In this document: positions 9,805 through 55,634 of the stretch, piece after piece
Position numbering within the stretch: the first letter of the stretch is position 1
Layout: each line of letters begins with the position of its first letter
NCBI GenBank assembly: GCA_030142905.1
Contig: JASJOG010000279.1
Location: 62,001-126,000, forward strand
Length of the DNA: 64,000 nt
Direction of reading: 5' to 3'
From: Heliopora coerulea
Lineage: Eukaryota > Cnidaria > Anthozoa > Scleralcyonacea > Helioporidae
Position numbers and translations under genes: made by a program
Notes under the pieces: generated by a model
Seen by the model: only the letters and a program-made list of their open reading frames with translations
The model's database searches: none
What the model was told of the DNA's origin: nothing

Positions 9805-11327
9805 TTAGGAAGTATCTGTATCCTCTTGCGGATTTGATTTGCGGCGAACATCATTTTTTCTTGGATCTGTGTCGGCTGCACGCAAAAGCATAGGTTCCAA
9901 ACGTAGCTCAAGCTCAACAATTCTATGGTTGTAAGTGTCGCAGACGTAGAATATTCCGTGATGGTCGTGAACTATACCAGAAGGATGATTTAAACCACCT
10001 ATACAACAAATATGCTTACCAGCTGTGGTAAGGACATGCACCCTTTCTTTGTACCAATCAGAGACCACAACATATTGATCATATATTGCAATCCCCCGGC
10101 ATTCAGCGAAGCTATGTTCCACCGAGAGTTCAGGCCCAATGCATCGTATGAAATTACCATCTTCTGAGAAGACCTGAATGCTATTGAGAACCATGTCGGT
10201 AACAAATATGTTACCCTGCAAATATGTTATGCAGTTTGTCAAAAGCTGCATTTAAACAATGTTCCATTGATCCAGTGGCGACCCCTCCTCGCCAATATCG
10301 AATTGCCCATCACGATCCAACATCACAATCCTATGATTTCCGGTATCGCACACAACAGCTTGACCCTTCAGGTTTATAGCAATCCCATGTGATATCTTGA
10401 AATTTCTTCAAATAATAAAACAGCGATTTTGTCGTGGTAACAAATTTAAACACAGTTTTTAAATACGTAGATACCATGGTGAATGGTAATTTAAGATAAA
10501 GTAGAAGATGAAGAGTAATATACGCTTTAAAGAGGTATACACAGTTACCAAAGACTGTTGGATAGTTTAGTTCTTAAAAGAACTGTTTGAAACTTAAAGA
10601 GGTAAAATTCTACGTAAAGAATAAGCCTAAAGAATTAGAAAAAAGCACGATGCATTCCGGCAGACCACTTATCAAGTGCTATACGTCTGCTAACTAAAGA
10701 AACATATGGGTCGATGTCATCAGTTTTGTTTAGACTATATAAGCAGGTGATATGTTTCTTTAGTTAGCAGACGTATAGCACTTGATAAGTGGTCTGCCGA
10801 AATGCATCGTGCTTTTTCTAATTCTTTAGGCTTATTCTTTACGTAGAATTTTACCTCTTTAAGTTTCATACAGTTCTTTTAAGAACCAAACTATCCAGCA
10901 GTCTTTGGTTACTGTGTATACCTCTTTAAAGCGTATATTACTCTTCATCGTCTCCTACTCTATCTTAAATTACCATTCACCATGGTATCTACGTATTTAA
11001 AAACTATCTTGAAGTTCCTTCCATGCACTTTCGTTATAATGGTCGTTTCACCTGTCATCGCATCAAGAATCTTTATGCAATTTGCCCTCGGCTCGAAAAT
11101 GATAATCTCTCCCTTATGGCTACAGGCAATATTTGTAGGAAAATTAAAGCTCTCTGAGCTGGCCACAGTTCCGATGTAGTCTAAATTCTTGCCCATTCTT
11201 ATCAAACGATTATTATTCTTATCCACAACGATAAGCTCATCTTTGTTACTTATACAAAGGTCCCATATCCTATGAAAACATTCTACTTCCTTACTTGGTC
11301 CAATGAGTTTATTGGTGATAACAATAT
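9805..11327 (-). pseudogene. NHL-repeat exon, unit 1, disrupted by foldback insertion
   Basis: This is the counterpart of the intact NHL exon at 38055-38950. An acceptor TTCAG precedes the first NHL codons. The first part (to about 11005) and last part (9805-10251) encode recognisable NHL blades such as GNIFVTDMVLNSIQVFSEDG. The exon is split by about 600 bp of inserted sequence containing a long foldback. A 1-nt deletion near 10270 (CCATTGATCC where unit 3 has CCATTTGATCC) shifts the frame. Both lesions are shared with unit 2, so the defect arose before those units separated. Confidence 0.85.
10455..11004. mobile_element. Foldback (long inverted repeat) insertion in the NHL exon, unit 1
   Basis: Two arms of about 250 bp are reverse complements: the outer left end GTTTTTAAATACGTAG matches the outer right end CTACGTATTTAAAAAC. 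They flank a loop of roughly 40 bp. The inserted stretch extends left to about 10402. ATCTTGAA is duplicated at both borders (10394-10401 and 11006-11013). Unit 3 has a single uninterrupted ATCTTGAA at this site. Confidence 0.85.
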
Positions 11328-11605
11328 CTGAATAATGAAAAGTATTCAATCGTTAGAAGGAAGGAAAACGTCATCCAAGTCATTCAAGACGTACAAGGTG
11401 ATTTGATTGCTGAACTAATACATTCCTGTGCCAATCAATCCATTGTTATAACTTAAACGTTTAAAGATTTGCTCGTTCAAGAAACTTCTTGCTTGGATTA
11501 TGCTTCCAACTGTTTGAGGATACAAACGTTTTATTTTGTGTCTTTTTCATACATCTTATTTTCTAAATCCATGCATGACGAAAATCCTATTACAAAATTA
11601 ACGTT

Positions 11606-12775
11606 AATGCCAAAAACTTTCTCTCTTTCTTTCTTTCGTTCGTTACTTCTTGTTCTCTTTTCTTTCTTCCTCTCTTCTTCCTTTTTCTCTTCTTCCTTTC
11701 TCTCTTCTTCGCTTCTGTCTTTCTTCCTTTCTCTCGTCCTTCCTCTCTTCCTTTCTTTCTCTGTTTCTTTCTCTCTTTTTTCTTTCTTTCTTTCATTCTT
11801 TCTTTCTTTCTGGCTTTCTTTCTCTCTTTCTTTTTACTTTCTTTGTTCCTCTCTTTCGTTCCTTCTTTCTTCTTTTCTTCCTTTCTTCCTTTCTTTTTTC
11901 TTTCTTTCTTTCTTCCTTTCCTCCTTTCTTTTACTTTCTATATCTTATTTAATATCTTGTTTAAAAAGATAATTACATAAAATATGTTCAGGGCTCTAAT
12001 CGAGTAGCCTGAACACCTTTAACCAACTATACTAAATATATACATGTTAAAATTCCTAAGTTCTAACAGATTTAAAAAGGTTCTTTATACGAATCGAGCC
12101 AAATATAACTACTTTTTGCATTCTTTTCAAAACACTCTCTACTAATTTGTCATGTTGTAATAACTTATTTAGCAAAGTTTTTAAGCACTTTAAGTATCGT
12201 CCCAACGCATCCAGCAGCACGTATCCACTTTCTTTCTTTCCTTCTTTCTTTCTTTCTTTCCTTCTTTCCTTCCTTCCTTCTTTCTTTCCTTCTTTCTTTC
12301 TTTCCTTCTTTCTTTCTTTCCTTCCTTCTTTCTTTCCTTCTTTCTTTCTTTCCTTCTTTCTTTCCTTCTTTCCTTCTTTCTCTCTTTCCTTCTTTCTTTC
12401 TTTCCTTCTTTCTTGCTTTCCTTCTTTCCTTCTTTCCTTCTTTCCTTCTTTCTTTCTTTCCTTCTTTCTTTCTTTCCTTCTTTCTTTCTTTCCTTTTTTC
12501 TTGCTTTCTTTCTTTCCTTCTTTCTTTATTTCTTTCTTTCTTGCTTTCTTTCTTTCCTTTTTTTGCTTTCCTTCCATCACCCCATCCTTCCTTTATTTAT
12601 ACCGTGCTTCCTTCCTTCGTCCCTTCCTTCCTTCCTTCCTTTCTTCCTTTCCTTCATTGTTTCATTGCTTCCCTTCCTTCCTTCCTTTCTTGTCGTACTT
12701 CCTTCCTTCTTTATTTCTATCCTCTCTTCTTTCTCTTTTTTTCCTTCCTTCCTTCTTTCTTTTCTTTACTCCACT
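11606..12775. repeat. TTTC/TTCC polypyrimidine tracts, unit 1, with TTCG-rich tail
   Basis: Two tracts (about 11606-11945 and 12227-12775) are almost pure C and T in 4-bp steps with interruptions. A degenerate TTCG repeat follows at about 12885-12985. They lie between the 55-nt exon and the NHL exon, that is, in intron 2 of the kinase-NHL gene. Transcribed from the minus strand they would be purine-rich RNA. Long open frames here are low-complexity artefacts. Confidence 0.95.
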
Positions 12776-13160
12776 TCTGCCATTCATTCCCTTCGTTTCG
12801 CTCATGCAACTTATAATTGATTCTTACATTTAAGTCACTTACTTTATAAAGTCATTCCACTCGTTTGCTTTTTTTTATTCGTTCGGTCAGTCGGTCGTTC
12901 ATCCGGTCGATCGTTGGGTTATTCATTCGGTCATTCGATCGTTCGTTCGTTAGTTCTTTAGTTTCTTTGCAAATTCGTTCGTTCATATATTTTCAATATG
13001 TTTTGCAACACCTAGTAAAGAGGCTGGGTGGCCACATTTAGTATCGTTATTCTCCCTGTCTTAATGAATTACAAATAAAATCTAGCTAGCCCAAAAAGGT
13101 AAATTTTTTGTTAATCTCAGAGTCCAAGAATATAATTTAACCAGATAACAAGTCACTTAC

Positions 13161-13215
13161 TCAAAGAAAATCCGTTGCTTTCGAAAGTCTGCAACTTGTG
13201 ATCATCCTGTAGTGA
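13161..13215 (-). pseudogene. 55-nt middle exon, unit 1 copy
   Basis: On the minus strand TTGTTACAG precedes TCACTACAGG and TTTGA is followed by GTAAGTGA. The frame is open (SLQDDHKLQ...NGFSL plus one base) and matches the intact unit 3 exon. The exon itself is undamaged, but the kinase and NHL exons on either side are broken. Confidence 0.7.
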
Positions 13216-13569
13216 CTGTAACAATTCAAAATAAATAAATAAATAAATAAAACCTAAATTTTTGTGGTTTACAAAAAATTTCTTGAAGTTTGTCTCATTT
13301 ATAAAGTTTCGAGGGAATCAGGATAAAAGTGAGAAAACGTAAGTCTTGGAAAGTTACCACGTTCGTCATAATAATGATAAGATATATAATGATAATAGAG
13401 AAAATAAGTCGCTTCGAGTTTGTAATTGGCTAGAGGACGTTTTCGGTTCAATTATTTTATAGACAGCTTATTGGTTCATCGTATATACTAATTCTTGATT
13501 TAACCAGGGCCCCCTTTGATAACAGCATTAGTTCTGTTTTAGGGCTTACTTTAGGTAAAAGTGATTCAA

Positions 13570-13950
13570 TTAATAAAATTGTTATTATTGTTATTATTAT
13601 CATTATCTTTTTATTGACGATATCATAATCATTCTTATTATTATCATTAGCATTATAATTAGCACTATTATTATCATTATCAATACCATTATAATTACAA
13701 TCATCATTATCATTACCATTACCATTATCAATATCATGACCATTACCCTTATCGTTACCATTATCATTACCATTACCATTATATTACCATTATCATTACC
13801 ATAATCATTACCATTGCCATTACCATTATTATTATAATTTACCATTATCATTATCGTCACCATTATCATCACCATTACATGACCTTTATCATTACCATTA
13901 TCATTACCATTATCATTATCATTGTCATTACCATTATTATTATTATGTAT
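13570..13950. repeat. ATTACC/ATTATC microsatellite, unit 1
   Basis: Imperfect CATTATCATTACC repeats lie in intron 1 between the kinase-KEN exon and the 55-nt exon. Equivalent arrays are at about 27985-28480 and 40900-41520. Confidence 0.95.
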
Positions 13951-14102
13951 AAAATCAACTTAAATAAACACAAGTCAGGAGTGTTACTTTAAACGTTGAT
14001 TGTATTGATCCTTTTGAAAAATAAATTATGACCAAATTAAATGTGCATTAATTTCCATAAAGTGTAGAGTATTACAGTGCTCGCTCACTTACACCTACCC
14101 GA

Positions 14103-15401
14103 AATTTTGGAAAGTCTCCTTTCGGATAAAATTCCCGTAATTTGACGTCATCTCTCCAAGGAATAGCGGCTTCATACGTGTGCAAGAGCAAGTGGGGAAA
14201 GTTCTTGGTAAATGAATCTAAACTTGTGTAACCAGTGTTTTCTGATTCATTGGGGCTTGGCATAGAACCCACATCAAAAACTTTTTGATCAGCCTCGGAA
14301 TAATGTCTCCAGTAATTTCTGATTGCCTTAATAAGCTCAGAGATGTACTCAGCACCAATTTCAAACCGACTACTTTCTTTGCTGAGTCTCATAGGTTTCT
14401 GGAAATTCTTGAAGTGATGTTGGATTGCAGGATGTAACTGGGATAGCCAGTTACCTCGAATGACATTCTGTTTGTTTTGATCAAGTCTGGCCCGCAAACA
14501 TGGAACGAAGACTTTCAGTGCAGTCGCCCACCACCTTGTAGAATTGGTACTGTCGTTACTCTGACCAAAAGAATGGATGATTCACGACATCTCGAGCATC
14601 AGGTCGCAACTCTGGATTTTTGTCCAAAAGATGAAACAACATGTCTTTTGCCAGAACGCCGTCTTGATCTGATTCACCAATCATTTTAATGTCAAGCTGC
14701 GCATCCTTTTTTGTACCATACGCTTTAATGCATTGCTGGGCTTCCTGAAGTTTATCTGGAATAATCTTCGAATTGTGAGAAAACAGATGTGAACCATGAG
14801 TCAGGCCATAATGAACTAGGAGTCCAAACGAGAAAATGTCCGCCTTTCTCGTCAGTCGGTGTTCACATTCGTGAAAGTACTCAATTTCTGGTGCTATCCA
14901 GCCGATCATTCCTCCAAATGTTCTTGTCCTTATGGACTCCTTTCCATCGTAGACATTTTTACTCACTTCGAAATCCGCCAAAACAATCCTTTTCCGGCTG
15001 CCACACGATATAAGAATATTACTTGGTTTTAGATCTAAGTGATAGATGCCATTTCGATGAATATGTTCAAGACCAAGTGCAATCTGCTTCACAGCCGTCT
15101 TTTCATCCAGTCCACCGCTGTCAAAGCTTGGATCTTCGACGAAATTGCAGAGATTTCCACTGCAAAGCTCAAGGTAAATGAAGCAGTAAGGATCTTGCTG
15201 TTCGATTAAAAAGTAGCGGATGACATTCTCGTGTTGTTTGTGCTTCGATAGTTCAATAAGTTTATTGACTTCGTTTATGTCTGTAGTCCCAGTGATTACT
15301 CTCTTTACAGCTGCAACTCGTTCATCGTTCATGGTGCGTTTAAAAATGAGAGAATACCCATCCAAAGATCCACCAAGCGTTTCATGGCCTGCTTTCGCCA
15401 T
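14103..15401 (-). pseudogene. Kinase-KEN (RNase L/IRE1-like) exon, unit 1, broken
   Basis: From the ATG at 15401 the frame encodes the kinase-like domain with AAVKR, HLDLKPSN and DFEVSK, then GWIAPEI, up to HPFFWSE. There a TAA stop near 14562 replaces a Tyr codon found in unit 3 (SAYRQYQ). Further on, a deletion of about 26 nt near 14492 shifts the frame at the start of the KEN region. The KEN remainder (RNYWRHY onward) is recognisable to 14103, where TACCCGAAAT marks the shared donor region. With the damaged NHL exon, this copy is a pseudogene of the kinase-KEN-NHL gene. Confidence 0.88.
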
Positions 15402-23884: not shown

Positions 23885-25235
23885 TTAGGAAGTATCTGTA
23901 TCCTCTTGCGGATTTGCTTTGCGGCGAACATCACTTTTTCTTGGATCTGTGTCTGCTGCACGCAAAAGCATAGGTTCCAAACGTAGCTGAAGCTCAACAA
24001 TTCTATGGTTGTAAGTGTCGCAGACGTAGAATATTCCGTGATGGTCGTGAACTATACCAGAAGGATGATTCAAACCACCTACAAAACAAATATGCTTACC
24101 AGCTGTGGTAAGGACATGCACCTTGTCATTGTACCAATCAGAGACCACAACATATTGATCATATATTGCAATCCCCCGGCATTCAGCGTAGCTATGTTCC
24201 ACCGAGAGTTCAGGCTCAATGCATCGTATGAAATTACCATCTTCTGAGAAGACCTGGATTCTATTGAGAACCATGTCGGTAACATATATGTTACCCTGCT
24301 TGTCAAAAGCTGTATTCAAACAATGTTCCATTGATCCAGTTGCGACCCCTCCTCGCCAATATCGAATTGCCCATCACCACCCAACATCACTATCCTATGA
24401 TTTCCGGTATCGTAGACAACAGCTTGACCCTTGTGGTTTATAGCAATCTCATGTGGTATCTTGAAATTTCTTCAAATAATAAAACAGCGATTTTGTCGTG
24501 GTAACAAATTTAAACACAGTTTTTAAATACGTAGATACCAAGGTGATTGGTAATTTAAGATAGAGTAGGAGAAGATGAAGAGTAATATACGCTTTAAAGA
24601 GGTATACAAAGACTGTTGGATAGTTTAGTTCTTAAGAAAACTGATGACATCGACCCATATGTTTCTTTAGTTAGCAGACGTATAGCACTTGATAAGTGGT
24701 CTGCCGAAATGCATCGTGCTTTTTTCTAATTCTTTAGGCTTATTCTTTACGTAGAATTTTACCTCTTTAAGTTTCAAGTAGTTCTTTCAAGAACTAAACT
24801 ATCCAACAGTCTTTGGTAACTGTGTATACCTCTTTAAAGCGTATATTACTCTTCATCGTCTCCTACTCTATCTTAAATTACCATTCACCATGGTATCTAC
24901 GTATTTAAAAACTATCTTGAAGTTCCTTCCATGCACTTTCGTTATAATGGTCGTTTCACCTGTCATCGCATCAAGAATCTTTATGCAATTTGCCCTCGGC
25001 TCGGAAATGATAATCTCTCCCTTATGGCTACAGGCAATATTTGTAGGAAAATTAAAGCTCTCTGAGCTGGCCACAGTTCCGATGTAGTCTAAATTCTTGC
25101 CCATTCTTATCAAACGATTATTATTCTTATCCACAACGATAAGCTCATCTTTGTTACTTATACAAAGGTCCCATATCCTATGAAAACATTCTACTTCCTT
25201 ACTTGGTCCAATGAGTTTATTGGTGATAACAATAT
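23885..25235 (-). pseudogene. NHL-repeat exon, unit 2, disrupted
   Basis: This is the NHL propeller exon with the same foldback insertion and 1-nt frameshift (CCATTGATCC near 24328) as unit 1. NHL blades are readable on either side, for example GNIYVTDMVLNRIQVFSEDG in the distal part. It cannot encode a continuous propeller. Confidence 0.85.
24519..24912. mobile_element. Foldback insertion, unit 2 copy, one arm truncated
   Basis: The right arm is nearly full length, but most of the inner left arm and loop is missing: the sequence passes from AAACTGATGACATCGACC straight into ATATGTTTCTTTAGTTAGC. The insertion site and flanks are the same as in unit 1. Confidence 0.8.
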
Positions 25236-25513
25236 CTGAATAATGAAAAGTATTCAATCGTTAGAAGGAAGGAAAACGTCATCCAAGTCATTCAAGACGT
25301 ACAAGGTGATTTGATTGCTGAACTAATACAATCCTGTGCCAATCAATCCATTGTTATAACTTAAACGTTTAAAGATTTGCTCGTTCAAGAAACTTCTTGC
25401 TTGGATTATGCTTCCAACTGTTTGAGGATACAAACGTTTTATTTTGTGTCTTTTTCATACATCTTATTTTCTAAATCCATGCATGACGAAAATCCTATTA
25501 CAAAATTAACGTT

Positions 25514-27185
25514 AATGCCAAAAACTTTCTCTCTTTCTTTCTTTCGTTCGTTACTTCTTGTTCTCTTTTCTTTCTTCCTCTCTTCTTCCTTTTTCTCTTC
25601 TTCCTTTCTCTCTTCTTCGCTTCTGTCTTTCTTCCTTTCTCTCGTCCTTCCTCTCTTCCTTTCTTTCTCTGTTTCTTTCTCTCTTTTTTCTTTCTTTCTT
25701 TCATTCTTTCTTTCTTTCTGGCTTTCTTTCTCTCTTTCTTTTTACTTTCTTTGTTCCTCTCTTTCGTTCCTTCTTTCTTCTTTTCTTCCTTTCTTCCTTT
25801 CTTTTTTCTTTCTTTCTTTCTTCCTTTCCTCCTTTCTTTTACTTTCTATATCTTATTTAATATCTTGTTTAAAAAGATAATTACATAAAATATGTTCAGG
25901 GCTCTAATCGAGTAGCCTGAACACCTTTAACCAACTATACTAAATATATACATGTTAAAATTCCTAAGTTCTAACAGATTTAAAAAGGTTCTTTATACGA
26001 ATCGAGCCAAATATAACTGCTTTTTGCATTCTTTTCAAAACACTCTCTACTAATTTGTCCTGTTGTAATAACTTATTTAACAAAGTTTTTAAGCACTTTA
26101 AGTATCGTCCCAACGCACCCAGCAGCACGTATCCACTTTCTTTCTTTCCTTCTTTCCTTCTTTTCTTCTTTCCTTCTTTCCTTCTTTCTTCTTTCTTTTT
26201 TTCTTTCTTTCCTTCTTTCTTTCTTTCCTTCTTTCTTTTTTTCCTTCTTTCTTTCTTTCCTTCTTTCTTTCTTTCCTTCTTTCTTTCTTTCCTTCTTTCT
26301 TTCTTTCCTTCTTTCTTTCTTTCCTTCTTTCTTTCTTTCCTTCTTTCTTTCTTTCCTTCTTTCTTTCTTTCCTTCTTTCTTTCTTTCCTTCTTTCTTTCT
26401 TTCCTTCTTTCTTTCTTTCCTTCTTTCTTTCTTTCCTTCTTTCTTTCTTTCCTTCTTTCTTTCTTTCCTTCTTTCTTTCTTTCCTTCTTTCTTTCTTTCC
26501 TTCTTTCTTTCTTTCCTTCTTTCTTTCTTTCCTTCTTTCTTTCTTTCCTTCTTTCTTTCTTTCCTTCTTTCTTTCTTTCCTTCTTTCTTTCTTTCCTTCT
26601 TTCTTTCTTTCCTTCTTTCTTTCTTTCCTTCTTTCTTTCTTTCCTTCTTTCTTTCTTTCCTTCTTTCTTTCTTTCCTTCTTTCTTTCCTTCTTTCTTTCT
26701 TTCCTTCTTTCTTTCTTTCCTTCTTTCTTTCTTTCCTTCTTTCTTTCTTTCCTTCTTTCTTTCTTTCCTTCTTTCTTTCTTTCCTTCTTTATTCCTTTCT
26801 TTTTTTCCTTCTTTCTTTCCTTCTTTCTTTCTTTCCTTCCTTCTTCCTTTCTTTCCTTCTTCCTTTCTTTCCTTCTTCCTTTCTTTCCTTCTTTCTTTCT
26901 TTCCTTCTTTCCTTCTTTCTTTCCTTCTTTCTTTCTTTCTTTCTTGCTTTCTTTCTTTCTTTCTTTCCTTTTTTTGCTTTCCTTCCATCATCCCACCCTT
27001 CCTTTATTTATACCGTGCTTCCTTCCTTCGTCCCTTCCTTCCTTCCTTTCTTCCTTTCCTTCATTGTTTCATTGCTTCCCTTCCTTCCTTTCTTTCTTGT
27101 CGTACTTCCTTCCTTCTTTCTTTCTATTCTCTCTTCTTTCTCTTTTTTTCCTTCTTTCCTTCTTTCTTTTCTTTACTCCGCTTCT
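25514..27185. repeat. Polypyrimidine tracts, unit 2, including a homogeneous 16-bp repeat
   Basis: A first irregular TTTC/TTCC tract (about 25514-25853) is nearly identical to unit 1. The second (about 26135-27185) contains at 26220-26790 a nearly perfect array of CCTTCTTTCTTTCTTT in roughly 35 copies. Unit 1 has only an irregular version. The tract lies in intron 2. A TTCG-rich repeat follows at about 27285-27400. Confidence 0.95.
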
Positions 27186-27576
27186 GCCATTCATTCCCTT
27201 CGTTTCGCTCATACAACTTATAATTGATTCTTACATTTAAGTCACTTACTTTATAAAGTCATTCCACTCGTTTGCTTTTTTTTATTCGTTCCGTCAATCG
27301 GTCGTTCATCCGTTCGATCGTTGGGTCATTCAGTCGTTCGTTCGGTCGTTTGATCGTTCGCTCGTTAGTTCTTTAGTTTGTTTCCAAATTCGTTCGTTCA
27401 TTTATCCTCAATATGTTTTGTAACACCTAGTAAAGAGGCTGGGTGGTCACATTTAGTATCGTTATTCTCCCTGTCTTAATGAATTACAAATAAAATCTAG
27501 CTAGCCCAAAAAATGTAGACTTTTTTTTAATCTCAGAGTCCAAGAATAAAATTTAACCCGATAACAAGTCACTTAC

Positions 27577-27631
27577 TCAAAGAAAATCTGTTGCTTTCGA
27601 AAGTCTGCAACTTGTGATCATCCTGTAGTGA
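27577..27631 (-). pseudogene. 55-nt middle exon, unit 2 copy
   Basis: It has the same TTACAG acceptor and GTAAGT donor as the other units and an open frame (SLQDDHKLQ...NRFSL). It lies between broken kinase and NHL exons. Confidence 0.7.
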
Positions 27632-27984
27632 CTGTAACAATTCAAAATAAATAAATAAGTAAAACCCAAATTTTTGTGGTTTGCAAAAAATTTCTTGAAG
27701 TTTGTCTTTTTTACAAAGTTTCGAGGGAATCAGGATAAAAGTGAGAAAACGTAAGTCTTGGAAAGTTACCGCGTTCGTCATAATAATGATAAGATATATA
27801 ATGATAATAGAGAAAATAAGTCGCTTCGAGTTTGTTATTGGCTAGAGGACGTTTTCGGTTCAATTATTTTATAGACAGCTTATTGGTTCATAATATTTAC
27901 TAATTCTTGATTTAACCGGGGTCCCCTTTGATAACAGCATTAGTTCTGTTGTAAGGCTTACTTTAGGTAAAAGTGATTCAATTA

Positions 27985-28480
27985 ATAAAATTGTTATTAT
28001 TATTATTATCATTCTTATTGTTATCATTAGCATTATAATTAGCACTATTATTATCATTATCAATACCATTATCATTATAATCATCATTATCATTACCATT
28101 ACCATTATCATTATCATGACCATTACCCTTATCATTATCATTATCATTACCATTATCATTACCATTATCATTACCATTATCATTACCATTATCATTACCA
28201 TTACCATTACTATTTCCATTATCATTATCGTTACCATTATCATTATTATTATTACCATTCTCATTAGCATTACCATTACCATTGCCATTATCATTATAAT
28301 TACCATTATCATTATCATTACTATTCTCATTACCATTATCATTAACATAATCATTACCATTGTCATTACCATTATTATTATAATTTACCATTATCATTAT
28401 CGTCACCATTATCATCACCATTACATGACCTTTATCATTACCATTATCATTATCATTGTCATTACCATTATTATTATTAT
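27985..28480. repeat. ATTACC/ATTATC microsatellite, unit 2
   Basis: Imperfect CATTATCATTACC repeat in intron 1, longer than in unit 1. Confidence 0.95.
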
Positions 28481-28626
28481 GTATAAAATCAACTTAAATA
28501 AACTTAAGTCAAGAGTGTTACTTTAAACGTTGATTGTATTGATCCTTTTGAAAAATAAATTATGACCAAATTAAATGTGCATTAATTTCCATAAAGTGTA
28601 GAATATTACAGTGTTCGCTCACTTAC

Positions 28627-29570
28627 ACCTACCCAAAATTTTGGAAAGTCTCCTTTTGGATAAAATTCCCGTAATTTGACGTCATCTCTCCAAGGAACAG
28701 CGGCTTCATACGTGTGCAAGAGCAATTGGGGAAAGTTCTTGGTAAATGAATCTAAACTTGTGTAACCAGTGTTTTCTGATTCATTGGGGCTTGGCAGAGA
28801 ACCAACATCAAAAACTTTTTGATCAGCCTCGGAATAATGTCTCCAGTAATTTCTGATTGCCTTAATAAGCTCAGAGATGTACTCAGCACCAATTTCAAAC
28901 CGACTACTTTCTTTGCTGAGTTTCACAGGTTTCTGGAAATTCTTGTGAGAAAACAAATGTGAACCATGAGTCAGGACATAATGTACAAGGAGTCCAAACG
29001 AGAAAATGTCCGCCTTTGTCGTAAGTCGGTGTTCACATTCGTGAAAGTATTCAATTTCTGGTGCTATCCAGCCGATCGTTCCTCCAAATGTTCTTGTCCT
29101 TATGGACTCCTTTCCATCGTAGACATATTTACTCACTTCGAAATCCGCCAAAACAACCCTTTTCCGGCTGCCACACGATATAAGAATATTACTTGGTTTT
29201 AGATCTAAGTGATAGATGCCATTTCGATGAATATGTTTAAGACCAAGTGCAACCTGCTTTACAGCCGTCTTTGATCTAGTCCACCGCGGTCAAAGCTTGG
29301 ATCTTCGACGAAATCGCAGAGATTTCCACTGCAAAACTCAAGGTAAATGAAGCAATAAGGGTCTTGCTGTTCGATTAAAAAGTAGCGGATGACATTCTCG
29401 TGTTGTTTGTGCTTCGATAATTCAATAAGTTTAATGACTTCGTTTATGTCTGTAGTCCCAGTGATTACTCTCTTTACAGCTGCAACTCGTTCATCGTTCA
29501 TGGTGCGTTTAAAAATGAGAGAATACCCATCCAAAGATCCACCAAGCGTTTAATGGCCTGCTTTCGCCAT
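28627..29570 (-). pseudogene. Kinase-KEN exon, unit 2, broken and internally deleted
   Basis: Three independent lesions are visible. The seventh codon after the ATG at 29570 is TAA (MAKAGH-stop). A 1-nt deletion near 29272 shifts the frame after GGLD. About 390 bp (130 codons) are missing in frame at about 28944, joining FSH of the kinase C-lobe directly to KNFQKP of the KEN region. The junction shares a short TTG microhomology with both sides in unit 1. The kinase ATP-lobe, ADFEVSK and KEN end are otherwise recognisable. Confidence 0.88.
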
Positions 29571-33957: not shown

Positions 33958-36466
33958 TCATTCCTCATCACTGTAGTTAGAATCACTGCTTCTCATTCTA
34001 CCTAGGGGAGGGTCTTCACGATCACTGTCGTCCAAGCCTTCTGACAATTCCATGTGAGAAAAGTCGGCTGGTGGGTTTTCTTGGCTTTGTTCTAAGGCAT
34101 CTTCCTCCAGTACATTAGCTTCCATCTCTTCTTTCTCTCCATCTTCCTCGCTCTCAGATTCTCCAAAATATGTTGAAGGTGAGTCACGTCCAACATCTTT
34201 TAACCAATCCCTTAGGAATTCTTCCCTCTCCGTCTCTCTTGTCCTATTTGGTGCGCTTCCTTTTGGTTCAAACTGCTTTCGTTTTCCTTGGGTTTTCTTC
34301 CTTAATTTATCGCTGTTCCAGAGGTCCACAGCAAGCTCACCGAAACCCTCACGGAAAACGTGGAGGGTTGGGCCTGTTACTTTGATGTGAATCAAATCAA
34401 TCAAGTTGCTTTCATTCAACCTGTTCCGACAGTCAGTCTTGACTACACTCAAGTATGAGATAAACGACTCGCACACTGCATTGCCGTATGCGGAACAGCA
34501 GAGACACAGCTCGATCAGTGCCCAAGGTTCTGGTGCTTCGTCCTGCTTTATCTACCAGAGTATTGGCCACAGATCCATGAGGTCGATAACAGCAACGTCA
34601 AAGTATGAGGTTGCTCATTGCACAAACACAACATACTGCTCTTGTAACAGTTGCTTGTTGGTCTGGCGTAGTGGGTCGATGTCTTTGAAGCTCTTGAAAA
34701 CATTGGAGATTGCTTCCATTTGTACTGACAGCTTGTCTTCAGTCCCGTCCTTCATCCAAACGCTAGTATAGAATAACTTGGCGATGCTGTGTGCTACTTA
34801 TAAGAGAAAGCAAATTCCGAAAAAGAAAGCCATCTTTTAACTTAAGATTTAAGTTAATGAAAGATGAAACTGTGAATTAGTGATATTTCGATTTTATTGC
34901 AAAATCATCTTCAGACTAAGTGAACCAACATAAGCGGACCTAAGGTTTATATATACATGTGAAAGTGATTGCATCATCGATGAAGAATTGAGGAAACGCC
35001 TACTCTATTTACAATGATTGATTGTGTCAGTAAGTGACAAGTGTTGACGCCTAAGGATGAAATGACAAGATGTCGATGAATAAAAGATCGACATCTGATA
35101 TTCGTTGACAGTTTTGTCAACTGCCTCAACTTGCTTGATCAGGTCAACTCGGCTTGTCTTCTGAGTGATCAAGGAAAGTAGCCGAGTTGATTCCAGGATG
35201 TCAGCATACGTTACACATTTTAGCAACATGGTAGCTTTTGCTATGCGCTGCCTTGTCATTCTGTTTGCTTTTGCCAGCAACGACATTCTGAATGTAGGCC
35301 AAGTACAGTCCCCTCTTGTCGACGAAAGCTTTCATGGCTCGCAACTTGTGGTCAATCCAGCGGGTACCACTCGATTTGGAAGGCTTGATTTGTCTGTTCT
35401 CAAAGCTGTACCCTTCTTTCAGGATTTCATGCAAACTCCTCAGTTCTCTCAGTCGCCTTGCAGAGTTCTGATAAATACAATACAAATCTCGCATTGCAGT
35501 TTCAACTTCCTTCATGTCGTTCTGAATCGCGTCCTTTATAGCCAGTTCAAGTCGATGGGACAAACACCAAAAGAATTTGATGTGCTTGCCAAACTTTCGC
35601 TGCAGTATGGAATTAACACCATCTCGCAGACCTGAATTAACTGCAGTACCATCAGACTCAAAAAAGACAATTCTTTTCAGTTTCTCTGCAATGTCACAAT
35701 CTTTAAAGGCATCGATAGAAGCACCTGTAATCCCTTGCGCATCTCGTGATTCCACCGGCTTCAAAATTAGAAAAACAAGTGAAGCTTTAAATTCGTCTGG
35801 ATCTAGAAACAGTATGTAGATAGCTTCCTTCTCTTTGCTCGCTGCATCAGTCGCCCCATCTGCTAACACAGTTACAAAATTAGCTCTCTTGACTTTATCC
35901 TTGACTTGCCTCACATACAGCGCCTTGGCAGCAAAGTGAATGAATAATTTGCAGCCCTTGTCATTCTAGTATGTACCTCCAGGCATGAACTTGACTCCAT
36001 GTAACTTTTTAATCCTTACGTGATCAATGAAGTCAGAATAAGGCCATCCCTTGTAAGCTAGCAGATATCCAATGTCGAAGAGGTTCTGCATGGCAGTTCT
36101 TTCTTCGGGTGTAAGCCATCCCATATTGCCGACTGCCCGGACAATGGGGGTACCAGGTGGTACTGGTGGTAACTGCACTCGTACATTTCTGTTCTCGGTG
36201 GCTGGCTGCTCCTGCTCTTCAAGTCGCAAAGCTTGTTTATGAAGCTTACGTTGAACGTGTTCTGTAACTGCCGATGATTTTAAAATGGTAGATCCAGTAA
36301 TAAAAGCGTTTTTCCCAAGAAGTTTGGCCTTCCACTTCACTCAAATATCACAAGTCAATACTTTTCGGGTTGCATCAAGTTGAAAATACTTGTTTGTCTG
36401 TCTCCGATTGTCAAAAGTTGCTGGTTTTACTCACCGACAGGACATCGTGATTTTTGTGGATACCGC
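33958..36466 (-). pseudogene. hAT transposase relic, ZNF862-like, unit 3
   Basis: The start codon position is mutated (GCG in place of ATG at 36466), with stops soon after and again in the zinc-finger region near 36342 (ATT TGA GTG). The central part with CLSHRLELAI and WIDHKLRAMKA is open for 237 codons, and the acidic C-terminus reads through to the stop at 33958. A segment of about 300 bp (34798-35095) unlike units 1 and 2 replaces the equivalent transposase coding part. Confidence 0.85.
34798..35095. other. Foreign segment replacing part of the hAT relic, unit 3
   Basis: Between GTGCTACTTA and CATCTGATATTCG the sequence is unrelated to units 1 and 2, where transposase coding sequence continues. 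It is AT-rich with no long frame. It may be a small insertion with loss of host sequence. Confidence 0.6.
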
Positions 36467-38054: not shown

Positions 38055-38950
38055 TTAGGAAGTATCTGTATCCACTTGCGGATTTGCTTTGCGGCGAACA
38101 TCACTTTTTCTTGGGTCCGTATCTACTGCACGCAAAAGCATAGGTTCCAAACGTAGCTGAAGCTCAGCAATTGTATGGTTGTAAGTGTCGCAGACGTAGA
38201 ATATTCCGTGATGGTCGTGAACTATACCAGAAGGATGATTTAAACCACCTACACAACAAATGTGCTCACCAACTGTGGTAAGGACATGCACCTTGTCATT
38301 GTAGTAATCAGAGACCACAACATATTGATCATATATTGCAATCCCCCGGCATTCAGCGAAGCTATGTTCCACCGAGAGTTCAGGCCCAATGCATCGTATG
38401 AAATTACCATCTTCTGAGAAGACCTGGATTCTATTGAGAACCATGTCGGTAACATATATGTTACCCTGCTTGTCAAAAGCTGTATTCAAACAATGTTCCA
38501 TTTGATCCAGTGCCGACCCCTCCTCGCCAATATCGAATTGCCCATCACGATCCAACATCACAATCCTATGATTTCCGGCATCGCAGACAACAGCTTGACC
38601 CTTGTGGTTTATAGCAATCCCATGTGGCATCTTGAAGTTCCTTCCATTCGCTTTCGTTATAATGGTCGTTTCGCCTGTCATCGCATCAAGAATCTTTATG
38701 CGATTTGCCCTCGGCTCGGAAATGATAATCTCTCCCTTATGGCTACAGGCAATATTTGTAGGAAAATTAAAGCTCTCTGAGCTGGCCACAGTTCCGATGT
38801 AGTCTCCATTCTTGGCCATTCTTATCAAACGATTATTATTCTTATCTACAACGATAAGCTCATCTTTGTCACTGATACAAAGGTCCCATATGCGATGAAA
38901 ACATCCTACTTCCTTACTTGGTCCAATGAGTTTATTGGTGATAACAATAT
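38055..38950 (-). CDS. Kinase-KEN-NHL gene, exon 3: six-bladed NHL propeller
   Basis: This exon begins after the acceptor CATTATTCAG with two bases that complete a codon, then IVITNKLIGPSKE, and ends at a TAA after DTDTS. It encodes about 297 residues with six NHL-type blades, recognised by motifs such as ELIVVDKNNNRLIRM, AVVCDAGNHRIVML, NIYVTDMVLNRIQVF and FYVCDTYNHTIAEL. NHL propellers bind RNA, proteins or small ligands in TRIM-NHL and related proteins. Here the propeller follows a KEN ribonuclease, so it may sense ligand or select RNA. There is no ATG at a natural start for this exon, which supports its being a downstream exon. It is intact, unlike units 1 and 2. Confidence 0.85.
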
Positions 38951-39235
38951 CTGAATAATGAAAGGTATTCAATCGTTAGAAGAAAGGAAAACGTCATCCA
39001 ACTCATTCAAGACGTACAAGATGATTTGATTACAAAACTAATACATTCCCATGCCAGTCAATTCATTGTTATAATCCAAACATTTAAAGATTTGCTCGTC
39101 CAAGACACTTTTTGCTAGGATTATACTTCCAACTATTTCAGGATGTCAACGTTTTATTTTGTGTTTTTCATACATCTTATTTTCTAAATCCAGGTATGAC
39201 AAAAATCCTATCCCAAATCTAACGTTAATATCAAA

Positions 39236-40080
39236 AACTTTCTTTCTTTCTAAAATTCGTTCGTTCTTTCTTTCTCTGTTTTATTTCTTTCTCTGTTTTA
39301 TTTATTTCTCTCTTCTTCCTTTCTCTCTTTCTTTCGTTCTTTGTTTCTCTCTTTTCTTTGTTTCTCTCTTTTCTTTCTTTCTTTTCTTTTCTTTCTTTCT
39401 CTCTTTTCTTTCCTTCTTTCTTTTCTTTCTTTCTCTCTTTTCTTTCTTTCTCTCTTATTCCTTTCTCTCTTTCTTTCTTTCTCTCTTTCTTTCTCTCTTT
39501 CTTTCTTTCTCTCTTTCTTTCTATCTTTCTTTCTCTCTTTCTTCTTTCTTTTTTTGTTCCTCTCTTTCTTTCCTTCTTTCTTTCTTTCTTTTTTTCCTTC
39601 TTTCTTTCCTTCTTTCTTCTTTCTTTCCTTCTTTCTTTCTTTCCTTTTTTCTTTCTTTCCTTCTTTCTTTCTTTCTTTTTTTCCTTCTTTCTTTCCTTCT
39701 TTCTTCTTTCCTTCCTTCTCTCTTTCCTTCTTTTTTTCTTTCTTTCTTTCTTTCCTTCTTTCCTTCTTTCTTTCTTTCCCTCTTTCCTACTTGCCTCCTT
39801 TTTTTCTTTCCTTCTTTCCTTCTTTCCTTCTTTCTTTCTTTCCTTTTTTCTTTCTTTCCTTCTTTCTTTCTTTCCTTCTTTTTTTGCTTTCCTTCCATCA
39901 TCCCTCCCTTCCTTCATTTATATCATGCTTTGTTCCTCCCTCCCTCCCTCCCTCCCTCCCTTCCTTCCTTCCTTCCTTCCTTCCTTTCTTTCTTTCTTGT
40001 CCTACTTCCTTCCTTCTTTCTTTCTATCCTCTCTTCTTTTTCTTTTTTTCCTTTCTTCCTTCCTTCTTTTCCTTATTTCG
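39236..40080. repeat. Polypyrimidine TTTC/TTCC/CTTT tract, unit 3
   Basis: A single long C/T tract, rich in CTCTTT and TTCC steps, lies in intron 2 between the 55-nt exon and the NHL exon. A TTCG-rich repeat follows at about 40180-40295. Open frames in it are compositional. Confidence 0.95.
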
Positions 40081-40467
40081 CTTCTACCATTCCTTCCCTT
40101 CGTTTCGTTCATAAAATTTATAATTGATTCTTACATTTAAGTCACTTGATAAAGTCATTCCGCTCGTTTTCCTTTTTTTTTATTCGTTCGGACAGTCGGT
40201 CGTTCATCCGGTCGATCGTTGGGTTATTCATTCGGTCATTCGATCGTTCGTTCGTTAGTTCTTTAGTTTCTTTGCAAATTCGTTCGTTCATTTATTTTCA
40301 ATATGTTTTGCAAAACCTAGTAAAGAGGCTGGGTGGTCACATTTTAGGGTCATTATTCTCTCAATCTCAATGAATTACAAATAAAATCTAGCTAGCCCAA
40401 AAAGGTAGATTTTTTTGTTGATCTCAGAGTCCAAGAATAAAATTTAACCCGATAACAAGTCACTTAC

Positions 40468-40522
40468 TCAAAGAAAACCCATTGCTTTCAAAAGTCTGCC
40501 ACTTGTGATCATCCTGCAGTGA
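40468..40522 (-). CDS. Kinase-KEN-NHL gene, exon 2 (55-nt linker exon)
   Basis: The acceptor TTGTTACAG and the donor GTAAGTGA bound exactly 55 nt. Entered in phase 0, it reads SLQDDHKWQTFESNGFSL plus one base. That base plus the AT at the start of exon 3 makes an Asn codon and leads into the NHL frame. It therefore converts the phase-0 donor of exon 1 into the phase-1 acceptor of exon 3. The same exon and splice sites are kept in units 1 and 2. It lies between two microsatellite blocks. Confidence 0.75.
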
Positions 40523-40899
40523 CTGTAACAATTCAAAATAAAAAATAAGTAAATAAATAAATAAAAATAATAAACCCCCCAAAATTTTTGTGGTTTGCAA
40601 AAAATTTCTTGAAGTTTGTCTTATTTATAAAGTTTCGGGGGAATCAGAATAAAAGTGACAAAACATAAGTCTTGGAAAGTTACCGCATTTGTCATGATAA
40701 TGATAAGATATATAATGATAATAGAGAATAAGTCGCTTCGAGCTTCTGATTGCCTGGAGGACGTTTTCAGTGGAATAATTTCATACCCAGCTTATTGGTT
40801 CATAATATGTACTAATCCTTGATTTAACCAGGGCCCCCATTGATAACAGCATTAGTTCTGTTGTAGGGCTTACTTCAGCTAAAAGTGATTCAATTTTTA

Positions 40900-41520
40900 C
40901 AATTATTACAATTATTATCATTTCATTAACAATATTATCATTTCTATTTTTATCATTAGCATTATCAGTAGCACTGTTATCATTATCAATGCCATTATCT
41001 TTACCATCATCATTATCGTCATCATAACCATTATCATCATTATCGTCATCATTACCATTATCATCATTATCATAATCATTACCATTATCATTGTCATTAC
41101 CATTATCATTATGATCACAATTACCATTACCATTACCATTATTACAAGTACCATTACGATTACCATTATCACTACAATTGCCATTACCATACAATTATCA
41201 TTACGATTATCATTACTATTATCATTATAATTACCATTATCATTACTATTATCATTACCATTATCATTATCATTATCATTACCATTACCATTACCATTAT
41301 CATTACCATTATCATTACCATTATCATTACCATTATCATTACCATTATCATTACCATTATCATTACCATTATCATTACCATTATCATTACCATTATCATT
41401 ACCATTATCATAATTTACCATTAGCATTACCATTACCATAATTTACCATTAGCATTATCATCACTATTATCATTACCTTTATCATCACCATTATCATTGA
41501 CATTACCCTTATTATTATTA
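40900..41520. repeat. ATTACC/ATTATC microsatellite, unit 3
   Basis: At 41250-41410 the 12-bp unit ATTACCATTATC is nearly perfect; elsewhere it is interrupted. It lies in intron 1. Confidence 0.95.
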
Positions 41521-41667
41521 TGTATAAAATCAACTTAAATAAACGTAAATCAAGAGTGTTACTTTAAAGGTTGATTGTATTGATCCTTTTGGAAAATAAC
41601 TTATGAACAAATTAAAATTGCATTAATTTCCATAAAGTGTAGAATATTTCAATGCTCGCTCACTTAC

Positions 41668-43002
41668 ACCTACCCGAAATTTTGGAAAGTCTCCTTTCGG
41701 ATAAAATTCCCGTAATTTGACGTCATCTCTCCAAGGAATAGCGGCTTCATACGTGTGCAAGAGCAACTGGGGAAAGTTCTTGGTAAATGAATCTAAACTT
41801 GTGTAACCAGTGTCTTCTGATTCATCGTGACTTGGCAGAGAACCCACATCAAAAACTTTTTGATCAGCTTCGGAATAATGTCTCCAGTAATTTCTGATTG
41901 CCTTAATAAGCTCAGAAGTGTGCTCAGCACCGATTTCAAACCGACTACTTTCTTTGCTGAGTTTTACAGGTTTCTGGAAATTCTTGAAGTGATGTTGGAT
42001 TGCAGGATGTAACTGGGATAGCCAGTTACCTTGGATGACATTCTGTTTCTTTTGATCAAGTCTGGCCCTCAAACGTTGAGAAGCATCGAATCTCTGGTTC
42101 ATTGAACGAAGACTTTCAGTGCAGTCGCCCACCACCTTGTAGAACTGGTACTGTCGGTAAGCTGACCAAAAGAATGGATGCTTTACGACATCTCGAGCGT
42201 CCGGTCGCCACTCTGGACTTTTGTCCAAAAGATGGAACAACATGTCTTTTGCCAGAACGCCGTCTTGATCTGATTCACCAATCATTTTAAGGTCAAGCTG
42301 CGCATCCTTTTTGGTACCATACACTTTAATGCGTTGCTGAGCTTCCTGAAGTTTATCTGGAACAATCTTCGAATGGCAAGAAAACGGATGTGAACCATGA
42401 GTCAGGACATAATGAGCTAAGAGTCCAAACGAGAAAATGTCCGCCTTTCTCGTCAGTCGGTGTTCACATTCGTGAAAGTACTCAATTTCTGGTGCTATCC
42501 AGCCGATCGTTCCTCCAAATGTCCTTGTCCTTACGGATTCCATTCCATCATAGACTTTCTTACTCACTTCGAAATCCGCCAAAACAATCCTTTTCCGGCT
42601 GCCACATGATATAAGAATATTACCTGGCTTTAGATCTAAGTGATAAATGCCATTTCGATGAATATGTTCAAGACCAAGTGCAATCTGCTTCACAGCCGTC
42701 TTTTCATCCAGTCCACCGCTGTCAAAGCTTGGATCTTCGACAAAATCGCAGAGATTGCCACTGCAAAGCTCAAGGTAAATGAAGCAGTAAGGATCTTGCT
42801 GTTCGATTAAAAAGTAGCGGATGACATTCTCGTGTTGTTTGTGCTTCGATAATTCAATAAGTTTATTGACTTCGTTTATGTCTGTAGTCCCAGTGATTAC
42901 TCTCTTTACAGCTGCAATTCGTCCATCGTTCATGGTGCGTTTAAAAATGAGAGAATACCCATCCAAAGATCCACCAAGTATTTCATCGCCTGCTTCCGCC
43001 AT
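41668..43002 (-). CDS. Kinase-KEN-NHL gene, exon 1: RNase L/IRE1-like kinase and KEN ribonuclease
   Basis: The exon encodes 445 residues from the ATG at 43002 to the donor GTAAGT after FRVG. The kinase-like domain spans about 8-280: Lys33 in AAVKR, HLDLKPGN at 121-128 (HRD Arg replaced by Leu), DFE at 143-145 in place of DFG, GWIAPE at 167-172, and HPFFW at 275-279. The KEN domain spans about 281-435, with Arg370, Asn371 and His375 in AIRNYWRHY matching the KEN catalytic Arg/Asn/His, and FPQLLLHTYEA as in IRE1. The catalytic Tyr of IRE1 aligns with Ile here. There is no signal peptide, lumenal domain or membrane helix, so it is cytosolic as in RNase L. DFE/HLD suggests an ATP-binding pseudokinase that controls KEN dimerisation; that is inference. 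Confidence 0.88.
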
Positions 43003-45497: not shown

Positions 45498-45962
45498 TTA
45501 AGTGTATCTACTGGCGTAGCTGTAGTCCATTAATATTTGATTAAACGACTTGGTCGATCCAGGTTCTCTTTTGAGGGTGACTAGAGGTCTTCCATATCCT
45601 CCAAGGCCATGAAACTCAGCATATACCACTTCTTCGCTTCTATTCAATGAATCTTTAAGTTTAGTCTCCGTCCAAGGTTGTGTTTGACGTGGAAAGCTAC
45701 CAGGGTCACCACCAAGACACAACCAGGCTAAAAAATCGCGCGATTTCAAGGCACGGGAACCTGTTCGTAACTCCGGTGAATCTATTCCCAACAAACGGCT
45801 CTTAAAACGTTGAATCCTGCCATTGTGGTAGAATACCAAGTCACAGGTATCCCCATCGTGAATGGTAACCACCTTGGCATAAACGTTCACATATGTCGGT
45901 GGACTTGAAGACGAACGAGGGACGTCTCTTTCAGTAATTCTCTTCAGCTGTTGAAGACTCAT
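45498..45962 (-). CDS. SNase-like nuclease, unit 3 copy, complete active site
   Basis: This 154-aa intact frame starts at the conserved ATG (MSLQQLKRITERD). Active-site residues by alignment to staphylococcal nuclease are Asp36 and Asp38 in HDGDT, Arg56 in SRL, Asp61 and Glu64 in GIDSPE, and Arg125 in GYGRP. It is the only minus-strand copy with Asp at the Asp40 position. It has no signal peptide, so it is presumably intracellular. It lies 2.5 kb upstream of the intact kinase-KEN-NHL gene and 1.8 kb downstream of the diverged SNase gene at 48220, on the same strand. It is expected to be a Ca2+-dependent nuclease; substrate unknown. Confidence 0.9.
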   Translation of the reverse strand: MSLQQLKRITERDVPRSSSSPPTYVNVYAKVVTIHDGDTCDLVFYHNGRIQRFKSRLLGIDSPELRTGSRALKSRDFLAWLCLGGDPGSFPRQTQPWTETKLKDSLNRSEEVVYAEFHGLGGYGRPLVTLKREPGSTKSFNQILMDYSYASRYT

Positions 45963-51535: not shown

Positions 51536-52416
51536 TTAACCGTCGTGTTCCTGAGGAATGGCTGCCTTTCTTGTTGTTCTATTTACACGAAGCTTAAGTT
51601 TTACTATCCTGCTCTTACTGCCATAATCTACGACAAAGAATGTCATAAAATCCCCATCTTCCTTATAAGCCACCCCCCACACATGACTAAAGTCCTCCGT
51701 ATCTTGTCCCAGATCCGGACCAAAACTTTCAACGTATTTTCCAGTCTTAGAGATAACCTGAACACGTTTGTTCCTGTGGTCAGTTACTAGTAGACAGTCT
51801 TGAAATAACACAATTCCGGTTGGCTCAATAAACTGGAGTTCTCCACTTCCTTTGCACCCTATCGTACGACAAAACCTTCCTTGAACCGTGAAGACCTGGA
51901 GTCGATGGTTCCCAGCATCGCTAATGTATAACAAGTCATTATCATCTGCTGCTGCCATCCACGGGAAGAACAACTGACGTTGACCTCTTCCCTTTTTGCC
52001 AAACACAAGCTCAAGTTTGCATTCGGAGAAGACAATGATGCGATGGTTATGTGTGTCACAAATCACCAATTTTCCAGATGCACTGAACGTAACTCCATTA
52101 GGTTCCCGCAGGGCTTTGCCTTCAACGTCTGCAATGGTTTGGGTAAGTTTTCCTTCTTTATCAAATATAAATACTGCGTTTTTGCCAGTGTCAGCAACAG
52201 CTATGTTCCCCTCTTTATCAACTGCAACGTCATGTGGGCTATCAAAAAGGCTGGAATCCAAACAAGGCTTCAAACATCCAGCGTCGTCCAAGACGCACAC
52301 CCAGTGTAGACCGCTGTCAGTGATCACCAGGTTCCCTTGGTTGTCAATGGCGATGCCTCGAAACTCCCTTGTCCCTTCAGTGTTGCTAATTTGAAGATTG
52401 GAAACAGATTCCATGA
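51536..52416 (-). CDS. NHL-repeat exon of the diverged kinase-KEN gene
   Basis: The exon follows a strong acceptor (CATCTTATTTCAG) and runs to a TAA after PQEHDG, about 292 residues. Six NHL blades are visible, for example GNLVITDSGLHWVCVL, KLVICDTHNHRIIVF, LLYISDAGNHRLQVF and LLVTDHRNKRVQVI. It is the counterpart of exon 3 in unit 3 and lies about 2 kb downstream of the diverged kinase-KEN exon on the same strand. The acceptor needs a phase-1 upstream exon. An ATG two bases inside the exon could also be a start, so a separate NHL-only protein cannot be excluded. Confidence 0.8.
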
Positions 52417-52608
52417 CTGAAATAAGATGTTCCCAAAAAGTATCATTAGATAAGCTTTCAAGTTTGATCGCTACTGATAATAAAACAATATTTATTTAAT
52501 GATTGGGAAAAAAAATTATGAGCATTTATGAACTTACGAACAAACATTTAAAGGAATACTTGAGCAATATCGGAAAAATTCAGGACTAGAGAGCAAACGT
52601 TAGCCTAC

Positions 52609-54377: not shown

Positions 54378-55634
54378 CTTTATGTGTGAATCGTCGTCAG
54401 GATAAAATTCTTTGAACTTTTCTTCATGTCTCCAAGGGACGACAGCATAGTACACGTGCAACAGAAAACCCGGATACCTCTTGTTCACATCTTCCAAAAT
54501 ATCGTATTTGCCATCTTTCCTGTTTTCAAGACCAGGAGCTTCGCTTCTGTGTTTCCATAGGTGAACGCAATGATCTCTTATAAAACGCAACAAATCAGAC
54601 AAGTATTCCCTATCGTACTTTCCTTTATTTACAAACTCTCTGATTTGTTCTCCAACATCCCATTCACTTCCAATCACAATCTGTCTGTCTTGGTCTAGCC
54701 TATGGTGAAGGTGATTGTCAGTCTCATTATACAAAGTGTCGCCAGCAGTTTCAAGGAATTTTCCTTCTTTCAAAGAATCCCAAAAGACAGGATGCTCTAG
54801 ACATATCGACGCACCAGGCCTTTGTTTAGGGTTTCTCTGTAAAAGCTGAAATATCAGATCCTCTGCTAACAGGCCAGTTTGGGTCGTCTTGTCCAGATTG
54901 CGCAGTTTCAAATCATAATCTTTTTCCGAATACAAACATATGTTTTTCTGACACTGGTGATAGTCAACCTCTGCTTTGTCGTGGAATGGATGAAATCCCT
55001 TTGTTATAATGTAATAGAAAAGGCACCCCATGGCGAACATGTCAACCTTGGAGGAAAGACGATACTCGTAGTTGATGACACCAACTTCAGGGGCAATCCA
55101 TCCTTCACTTCCGGAGAATGTGAAAGTCCGTAGTGACTTTCCCCCTTCGCTGCATTTACTCACGTCAAAATCAGTAATAACGACTCGATTTGAGCTATCG
55201 TTTGCCCGAGTTATCAACACATTGCTTGGCTTGAGGTCCAAGTGAAAAATACCGCAGCTGTGAATATGATTTAGCCCACTTGCAATTTGTCTGGCCGCTT
55301 CAATATCTGTCAGTCCACGACGGTCAAAATCAGTGTCCTCGACAAAATCTGTAAGTGTGCCGTGGCACCACTCCAAGGCAATATAGTAATATGGCTCTTC
55401 ATGCTCGACCAAATAATATCGGATGATGTTGTCATGCTGTTTCACTTTCGACAGTTGAATAAGTTTGTTGACTTCCTCATAATTTGTAATGGAATCCACA
55501 ACTTTTTTGACTGCCACCTTTCGGCGGCCGTTATCCAACGTTCCAGCGAAAAGCATTGAGCCTTTCATGCTGGTTTGAACGCCAACACGAACTGTATTGA
55601 AAGAAATTTGGCCGACTTTCCTTGTTGACATCAT
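54378..55634 (-). CDS. RNase L/IRE1-like kinase-KEN exon, diverged paralogue
   Basis: The exon encodes about 419 residues from the ATG at 55634 to a candidate donor AAG|GTGTTG; without splicing the frame continues to 54261. Kinase features are Lys43 in VAVKK, HLDLKPSN at 131-138, TDFD at 154-157 (DFD as in vertebrate RNase L), GWIAPE at 178-183 and HPVFW at 281-285. The KEN domain spans about 286-410, with Tyr340, Arg353 and His358 aligned to the catalytic Tyr/Arg/His of IRE1 and with Asp354 in place of Asn. No membrane segment is seen. It is intact and lies outside the tandem units, so it is probably the older copy. The kinase is likely catalytically weak or dead while the RNase site looks usable. 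Confidence 0.85.

Follow-up and report, generated by a model that had tools for sequence, protein, structure and literature searches.

A three-exon gene joining a kinase-KEN ribonuclease to an NHL propeller in the anthozoan Heliopora coerulea

The locus and the three-exon gene

The window analysed here, 64,000 nucleotides of the Heliopora coerulea contig JASJOG010000279.1 (assembly GCA_030142905.1, positions 62,001 to 126,000), carries on its minus strand a gene, termed gene C, in which a protein kinase and a KEN ribonuclease domain of the type seen in IRE1 and RNase L are followed by an NHL propeller. A first-pass annotation of the letters had joined three exons of 1335 + 55 + 896 = 2286 nt, equal to 762 codons with a single terminal stop. 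We reproduced this join exactly, found the TTACAG acceptor and GTAAGT donor of the 55-nt exon and the TTCAG before exon 3 at their proposed places, and obtained the same succession of phases (0, 0 to 1, 1). With one correction at the end of exon 1, explained below, the joined frame is a single open frame of 759 amino acids (aa), and the three-exon kinase-KEN-NHL fusion is real. Exon 1 (41674..43002) provides the start codon, the kinase and the KEN domain and ends with PKFR in phase 0; exon 2 (40468..40522, 55 nt) encodes SLQDDHKWQTFESNGFSL plus one base, takes the phase from 0 to 1 and contributes to the KEN-propeller linker; exon 3 (38055..38950) encodes the NHL propeller, a C-terminal tail and the stop. 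With its introns the gene spans 4,948 bases. An in-frame TAG at 43029-43027 lies 24 nt upstream of the exon 1 ATG, although the transcript may include a further 5' exon spliced ahead of it. In the stretch from the end of exon 1 to the final stop (41673-38055), the frame stays open for up to 306 codons, as against a maximum of 115 codons in 200 mononucleotide shuffles.

The strongest support for this join comes from an independent relative. When the joined protein was searched against about 5.8 billion clustered proteins, by a method that needs shared 5-letter words, we recovered P0001 from another source: an uninterrupted open reading frame (ORF) of 764 aa that encodes all three domains, kinase, KEN and NHL, and lies on a contig of 3,029 bases. 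It is 65% identical to the joined gene C protein over 99% of the query, the frame being intact throughout (identities of 221/282 in the kinase, 108/158 in the KEN domain, 10/18 in exon 2 and 160/295 in the NHL part), and it has the exon-2 peptide (QTFESN) between the KEN domain and the propeller. As this contig is too short for the introns of a gene of 4,948 bases, it is most likely a spliced transcript, its source label being only 'lgn'. P0001 also speaks for the fusion on the doubts raised with the original proposal, albeit for a relative and not for the species at hand: its frame does not end after the KEN domain, its NHL part is not attached to some other 5' exon, and the product of the 55-nt exon is not skipped.

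The same comparison corrects the end of exon 1. The first-pass annotation was right about its phase 0 and placed its end at 41668, which we rejected in favor of 41674 on the identities to P0001. Two tandem 5' splice sites 6 nt apart (GTAGGT/GTAAGT, 41662..41673, minus strand) are present here, the first reading CGG/GTAGGT with the exon ending at 41674 and the second GGT/GTAAGT with the exon ending at 41668. Across the exon 1/2 junction the first donor gives 15/26 identities to P0001 in a gap-free alignment and the second only 3/26, and hence the most likely reading of the sequence is an exon 1 end at 41674 and a protein of 759 aa. Either donor preserves the frame, so that use of both is possible. 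The ORFs of P0003 and P0004, which run into the intron, diverge from the family sequence right after PKF(R/Q), and in the near-copies P0002 and P0176 the read-through is the same as in gene C of the window.

These read-through ends are also a reason for considering two genes or two main transcripts, in which the kinase-KEN exon, by retention of the intron, would serve on its own (ending VGVSERALKYSTLYGN) and the NHL exon would be part of another transcript. The exon 1 frame does remain open for 16 codons into the intron, P0002, P0003, P0004 and P0102 end in this way, and unit D, a diverged paralogue described below, yielded no joining exon. Against this, P0001 is a single ORF that includes the exon-2 peptide and runs across the equivalents of exons 1 to 3, the exon phases fit, and the read-through tails of the relatives part from one another shortly after PKF(R/Q), which is how introns would behave; we therefore regard a division into two genes or transcripts as highly improbable.

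Two further units on the minus strand, A (9805..15401) and B (23885..29570), are broken copies with their parts in the same order. Exon 1 of A is interrupted by a stop (codon 282) and has lost 26 nt in a deletion; in exon 1 of B a stop falls at codon 7, and four deletions have removed 1, 147, 153 and 90 nt. Their NHL exons are split by palindromic inserts, 596 nt long in A (near 10410-11005) and 440 nt in B (near 24474-24913), and have an additional 1-nt deletion each, along with a 16-nt insertion in A. Unit C is the sole intact copy of the three. The earlier observation that the 55-nt exon is kept in all three tandem units stands as far as the exon with its AG and GT is concerned (3/3); but, A and B being broken recent copies, the shared splice sites show recent duplication rather than selection, and we rejected this conservation as independent evidence for exon 2. 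The palindromic insert, which resembles a miniature inverted-repeat transposable element, sits at an identical position within the NHL exons of A and B. Its inverted arms measure 68 to 144 nt in A as compared with 36 to 105 nt in B, and it is probably the product of one insertion that preceded the separation of these units. The introns of all three units contain long AAGG/AAAG-type arrays and TGATAA-type repeats of varying length (39240-40110, 26135-27174 and 12228-12773).

Domain architecture and relationships

A Pfam scan of the 761-aa joined protein, with gathering scores as cut-offs, identified a Pkinase domain at residues 23-278 (118.5 bits; cut-off 31.7), directly followed by Ribonuc_2-5A (PF06479) at residues 286-424 (43.8 bits; cut-off 23.3), and an NHL domain (PF01436; 67.5 bits; cut-off 20). 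At an E-value of 0.001 the scan returned kinase, KEN and NHL families only, with no match to RING/B-box, lumenal-domain or ankyrin families. Hydropathy over 19 residues peaks at 0.77 in C and at 0.98 in P0001, compared with 2.0 to 2.4 in four IRE1-type proteins, in one of which the peak lies at the N-terminus, so that the gene C protein is predicted to be soluble. The domain matches, together with the P0001 ORF, bear out the earlier proposal of a kinase-KEN and an NHL part in one protein, and its further claims of a soluble product devoid of the sensor parts of IRE1 and RNase L agree with the low hydropathy, the missing Pfam matches and the lack of a predicted membrane segment.

The catalytic motif given for KEN domains in the relevant part of a survey of the HEPN superfamily is Rx4-6H with a polar residue after the R (PMC3710099), and R370-N371-x3-H375 of gene C fits this form. 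The R and H are invariant in 9/9 aligned rows, while the N becomes D in the four D-type rows; the kinase residues K33 (VAIK lysine), D123 (HxD aspartate) and D143 (of the DFG motif) are likewise invariant in all nine. As read from the sequence and from the independent relative, the protein has a kinase, a KEN domain, a linker and a C-terminal propeller; its catalytic motifs appear intact, and no membrane segment is predicted. On such sequence features it belongs with both the KEN ribonucleases and the NHL propeller proteins and lacks the extra features of IRE1, RNase L and the TRIM-NHL proteins.

Gene C differs from IRE1 (ERN1/ERN2) in having no lumenal domain, no transmembrane segment, an NHL domain after the KEN domain and DFE in place of DFG. 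With RNase L it shares the make-up of a soluble kinase-like and KEN protein with a separate sensor part, which in C would be the propeller; the DFG glycine is lost in RNase L as in C. RNase L, however, has N-terminal ankyrin repeats, which bind 2',5'-oligoadenylate (2-5A), whereas C has none and its proposed sensor part is C-terminal. The TRIM-NHL proteins (TRIM2/3/71, Brat and Thin) have a C-terminal NHL propeller of the same fold, but C is without their RING, B-box and filamin domains and its effector is a kinase-ribonuclease. Mycobacterial PknD, like C, combines an N-terminal kinase with a C-terminal NHL propeller; unlike C, it is without a ribonuclease, and a membrane helix separates its two domains.

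The protein searches yielded one fused protein of this type. Among the domain annotations listed, only one of 101 matches of the joined protein (P0001) combined kinase, KEN and NHL domains, and none of 74 in another protein search did so; the best 120 of 215 matches in a further search (7998 candidates scored) again held just P0001. Viral contigs gave no match, and the six pattern matches in genome contigs included no relative of gene C. Relatives at about 65 to 84% identity that are still open are P0001, P0003 and P0004. The titles and opening lines of abstracts among the literature matches listed, from searches partly aimed at RNase L evolution, describe no KEN-NHL protein. In its table, the HEPN survey of 2013 names kinase, ankyrin, CCCH, UBI and BRCT as KEN partners, and not NHL (PMC3710099); a word count finds neither NHL nor propeller in its text. 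In passages of PMC13319465, RNase L is named once, in the introduction, as an interferon-stimulated gene, and NHL is absent.

Unit D (55634-51536), also on the minus strand, has a kinase-KEN exon (54378..55634; about 39% identical to C, motif R-D-x3-H, ending AAG/GTGTTG in phase 0) followed on the same strand by an NHL exon (51536..52473; 27% identical to the NHL of C, with a phase-1 acceptor that is either ATCAG, its last base at 52474, or TTCAG, its last base at 52417), the outer splice phases being as in C. Joining the two would require a middle exon of length 3n+1, and a scan of the D intron for stop-free AG..GT stretches of such length between 28 and 130 nt found none resembling that of C (best similarity score 9). 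A 54-nt stretch bounded by AG and GT at 52662-52609, spotted by eye, has the wrong length for the phases. The relatives of D (P0102, P0103 and P0104) comprise the kinase-KEN part only; P0104 does not reach as far as exon 1 does, which may be because its contig of 1,456 bases stops there. When the NHL of D was compared with 288 fetched proteins, 13 others outranked C by phmmer whole score and two others by best single stretch and by BLAST. As the NHL of D is thus not clearly nearest to that of C, the case for a single fusion is carried by order, strand and phase only, and these suggest that the fusion is older than the C/D split.

In a midpoint-rooted tree, in which P0102 stands in for unit D of the window, which dropped out, and which includes 7 of 13 Xenia proteins and no vertebrate RNase L, the kinase-KEN parts of types C and D make up a single clade (100/99), and IRE1 proteins group with it (96/91). 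The Xenia KEN kinases and P0059, the sole ankyrin-KEN protein in the tree, fall outside this C+D+IRE1 group, P0059 on a long branch and with an unsure placement. The octocoral Xenia sp. Carnegie-2017 has an expanded KEN family: its 13 matches (P0112, P0116-P0118, P0120, P0122, P0126-P0131 and P0135) include nine on one 12.6-Mb scaffold, two with TPR repeats and three (P0112, P0117 and P0130) that appear by eye to have two kinase-KEN units each. Like C, 12/13 combine a kinase with Ribonuc_2-5A and have no listed lumenal domain; unlike C, they occupy a separate branch and have NHL listed in 0/13.

A proposed sensor-gated ribonuclease

KEN ribonucleases perform signal-gated RNA decay in animals, and two of their input modules are well known: in IRE1, a domain in the lumen of the endoplasmic reticulum (ER), and in RNase L, the ankyrin repeats. 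On balance we favor the view that gene C encodes a soluble 759-aa kinase-KEN-linker-NHL protein, in which the propeller is the sensor or adaptor of a ligand-gated ribonuclease. The architecture suggests that the propeller would take the place of the lumenal or ankyrin part, and that its binding of a protein or other ligand would concentrate or free the kinase-KEN part. Nucleotide-bound kinase domains would then pair as in IRE1 and RNase L, so that two KEN domains meet and the R-N-x3-H site could cut single-stranded RNA with no need for a metal; the basis for this pairing is the homology and dimerisation of IRE1 and RNase L as set out in sections of PMC8104961. The protein would thereby act much as RNase L does, as a soluble RNA-decay enzyme under the control of a ligand, but with its sensor at the C-terminus instead of at the N-terminus or in the ER lumen. 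Placed across the nuclease from the known input modules, the propeller shows that a KEN module can take a C-terminal partner, and the protein is a simple construct with which to ask whether proximity alone switches KEN on.

Any role in defence or stress is a guess; passages of PMC8476169 count an RNase L homologue, a different protein, as one of the antiviral genes reported in Nematostella in the response to poly(I:C). It is conceivable, if rather doubtful, that gene C represents a third class of KEN receptor, a soluble propeller-gated kinase-ribonuclease which emerged from an IRE1-like ancestor before the C/D split, senses through its C-terminal NHL domain and elicits RNA decay without 2-5A or the ER, as an antiviral or stress effector of an early-branching animal.

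What the propeller binds is the principal point on which a different reading could be built. The predicted structure of P0001 resembles an IRE1 kinase-ribonuclease plus a TRIM-type NHL propeller, the nearest folds to the modelled propeller being the NHL domains of TRIM2, TRIM3, Thin and TRIM71 and the designed Pizza6 propellers, in keeping with a six-bladed propeller of NHL repeats. In gene C a flexible linker of about 20 residues, containing the exon-2 peptide, separates the propeller from the KEN domain. By sequence, the natural NHL domains of known structure that match best are those of Thin, TRIM71, TRIM3, TRIM2 and Brat; the structure entries 1rwi/1rwl, named pknD, also match the propeller. 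The presence of RNA-bound TRIM71 NHL among the nearest folds, where two RNA-complex entries (6fq3 and 8j72) occur, keeps RNA targeting as the main rival: the propeller would bind RNA as those of Brat and TRIM71 do and aim the KEN domain at chosen transcripts, resulting in targeted mRNA decay rather than ligand-gated sensing. If the propeller does bind RNA, the protein would be a natural self-targeting ribonuclease. In Brat and TRIM71 it is a basic face that binds the RNA, whereas the NHL domains here are acidic overall (-10 in C, -5 in P0001 and -6 in D), a comparison of total net charge that mildly favors a protein or ligand partner. We consider RNA targeting unlikely.

Several observations weigh against the proposed sensor-gated ribonuclease. 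In the alignment the DFG glycine is replaced by E in all five rows of C type and by D in all four of D type, and the resulting DFE and DFD may reduce kinase activity. The KEN domain is partly poorly modelled, with residues 377-400 below a predicted local distance difference test (pLDDT) score of 50. For this species the gene is read from genomic DNA, and the single fused relative found is a cluster of 3 member sequences on 1 contig. P0001 is not labelled RNA and could be an intronless retrocopy, in which case its sequence would still derive from spliced RNA. P0002, P0003, P0004, P0102 and P0103 end in read-through after the KEN domain; gene calls on genomic DNA would have such ends, and a genuine short isoform ending there may also exist.

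The NHL part, moreover, evolves faster (54% identity to P0001), and the ratio of nonsynonymous to synonymous change (dN/dS) between C and the broken copies is 0.69 and 0.71 in exon 3, as against 0.36 and 0.26 in exon 1. These are ratios of computed values, with stops and gapped codons dropped, and being measured against dead copies they are at most weak evidence of selection acting on the propeller. A value near 0.7, the several breaks in A and B and the long simple repeats in the introns could be taken to mean that C is the last intact copy of a decaying tandem array, itself on its way out and with no present function. Yet the 759 codons of C hold no stop or frameshift, its catalytic residues are intact, and the relatives at about 65 to 84% identity stay open, which makes such decay very unlikely.

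Other elements of the window

Beside the units lie small, mutually similar ORFs at 47759-48262, 45498-46091, 31184-31777 and 17017-17610 on the minus strand and 3584-4075 on the plus strand. In the Pfam scan the first of these matched SNase with 22.4 bits (cut-off 21) and that at 17017-17610 had a weak SNase score (E 0.023), while those at 45498-46091, 31184-31777 and 3584-4075 gave no match; the five probably belong to a family of staphylococcal-nuclease-like genes that was amplified next to the KEN genes. The tandem units also repeat another gene on the minus strand, broken into several ORFs (5914-8203, 20018-22306 and 33958-36340), whose designation as a transposase is a guess; one piece of it, 21356-22306, contains a C17orf113-type zinc finger (PF25431, 42.2 bits).

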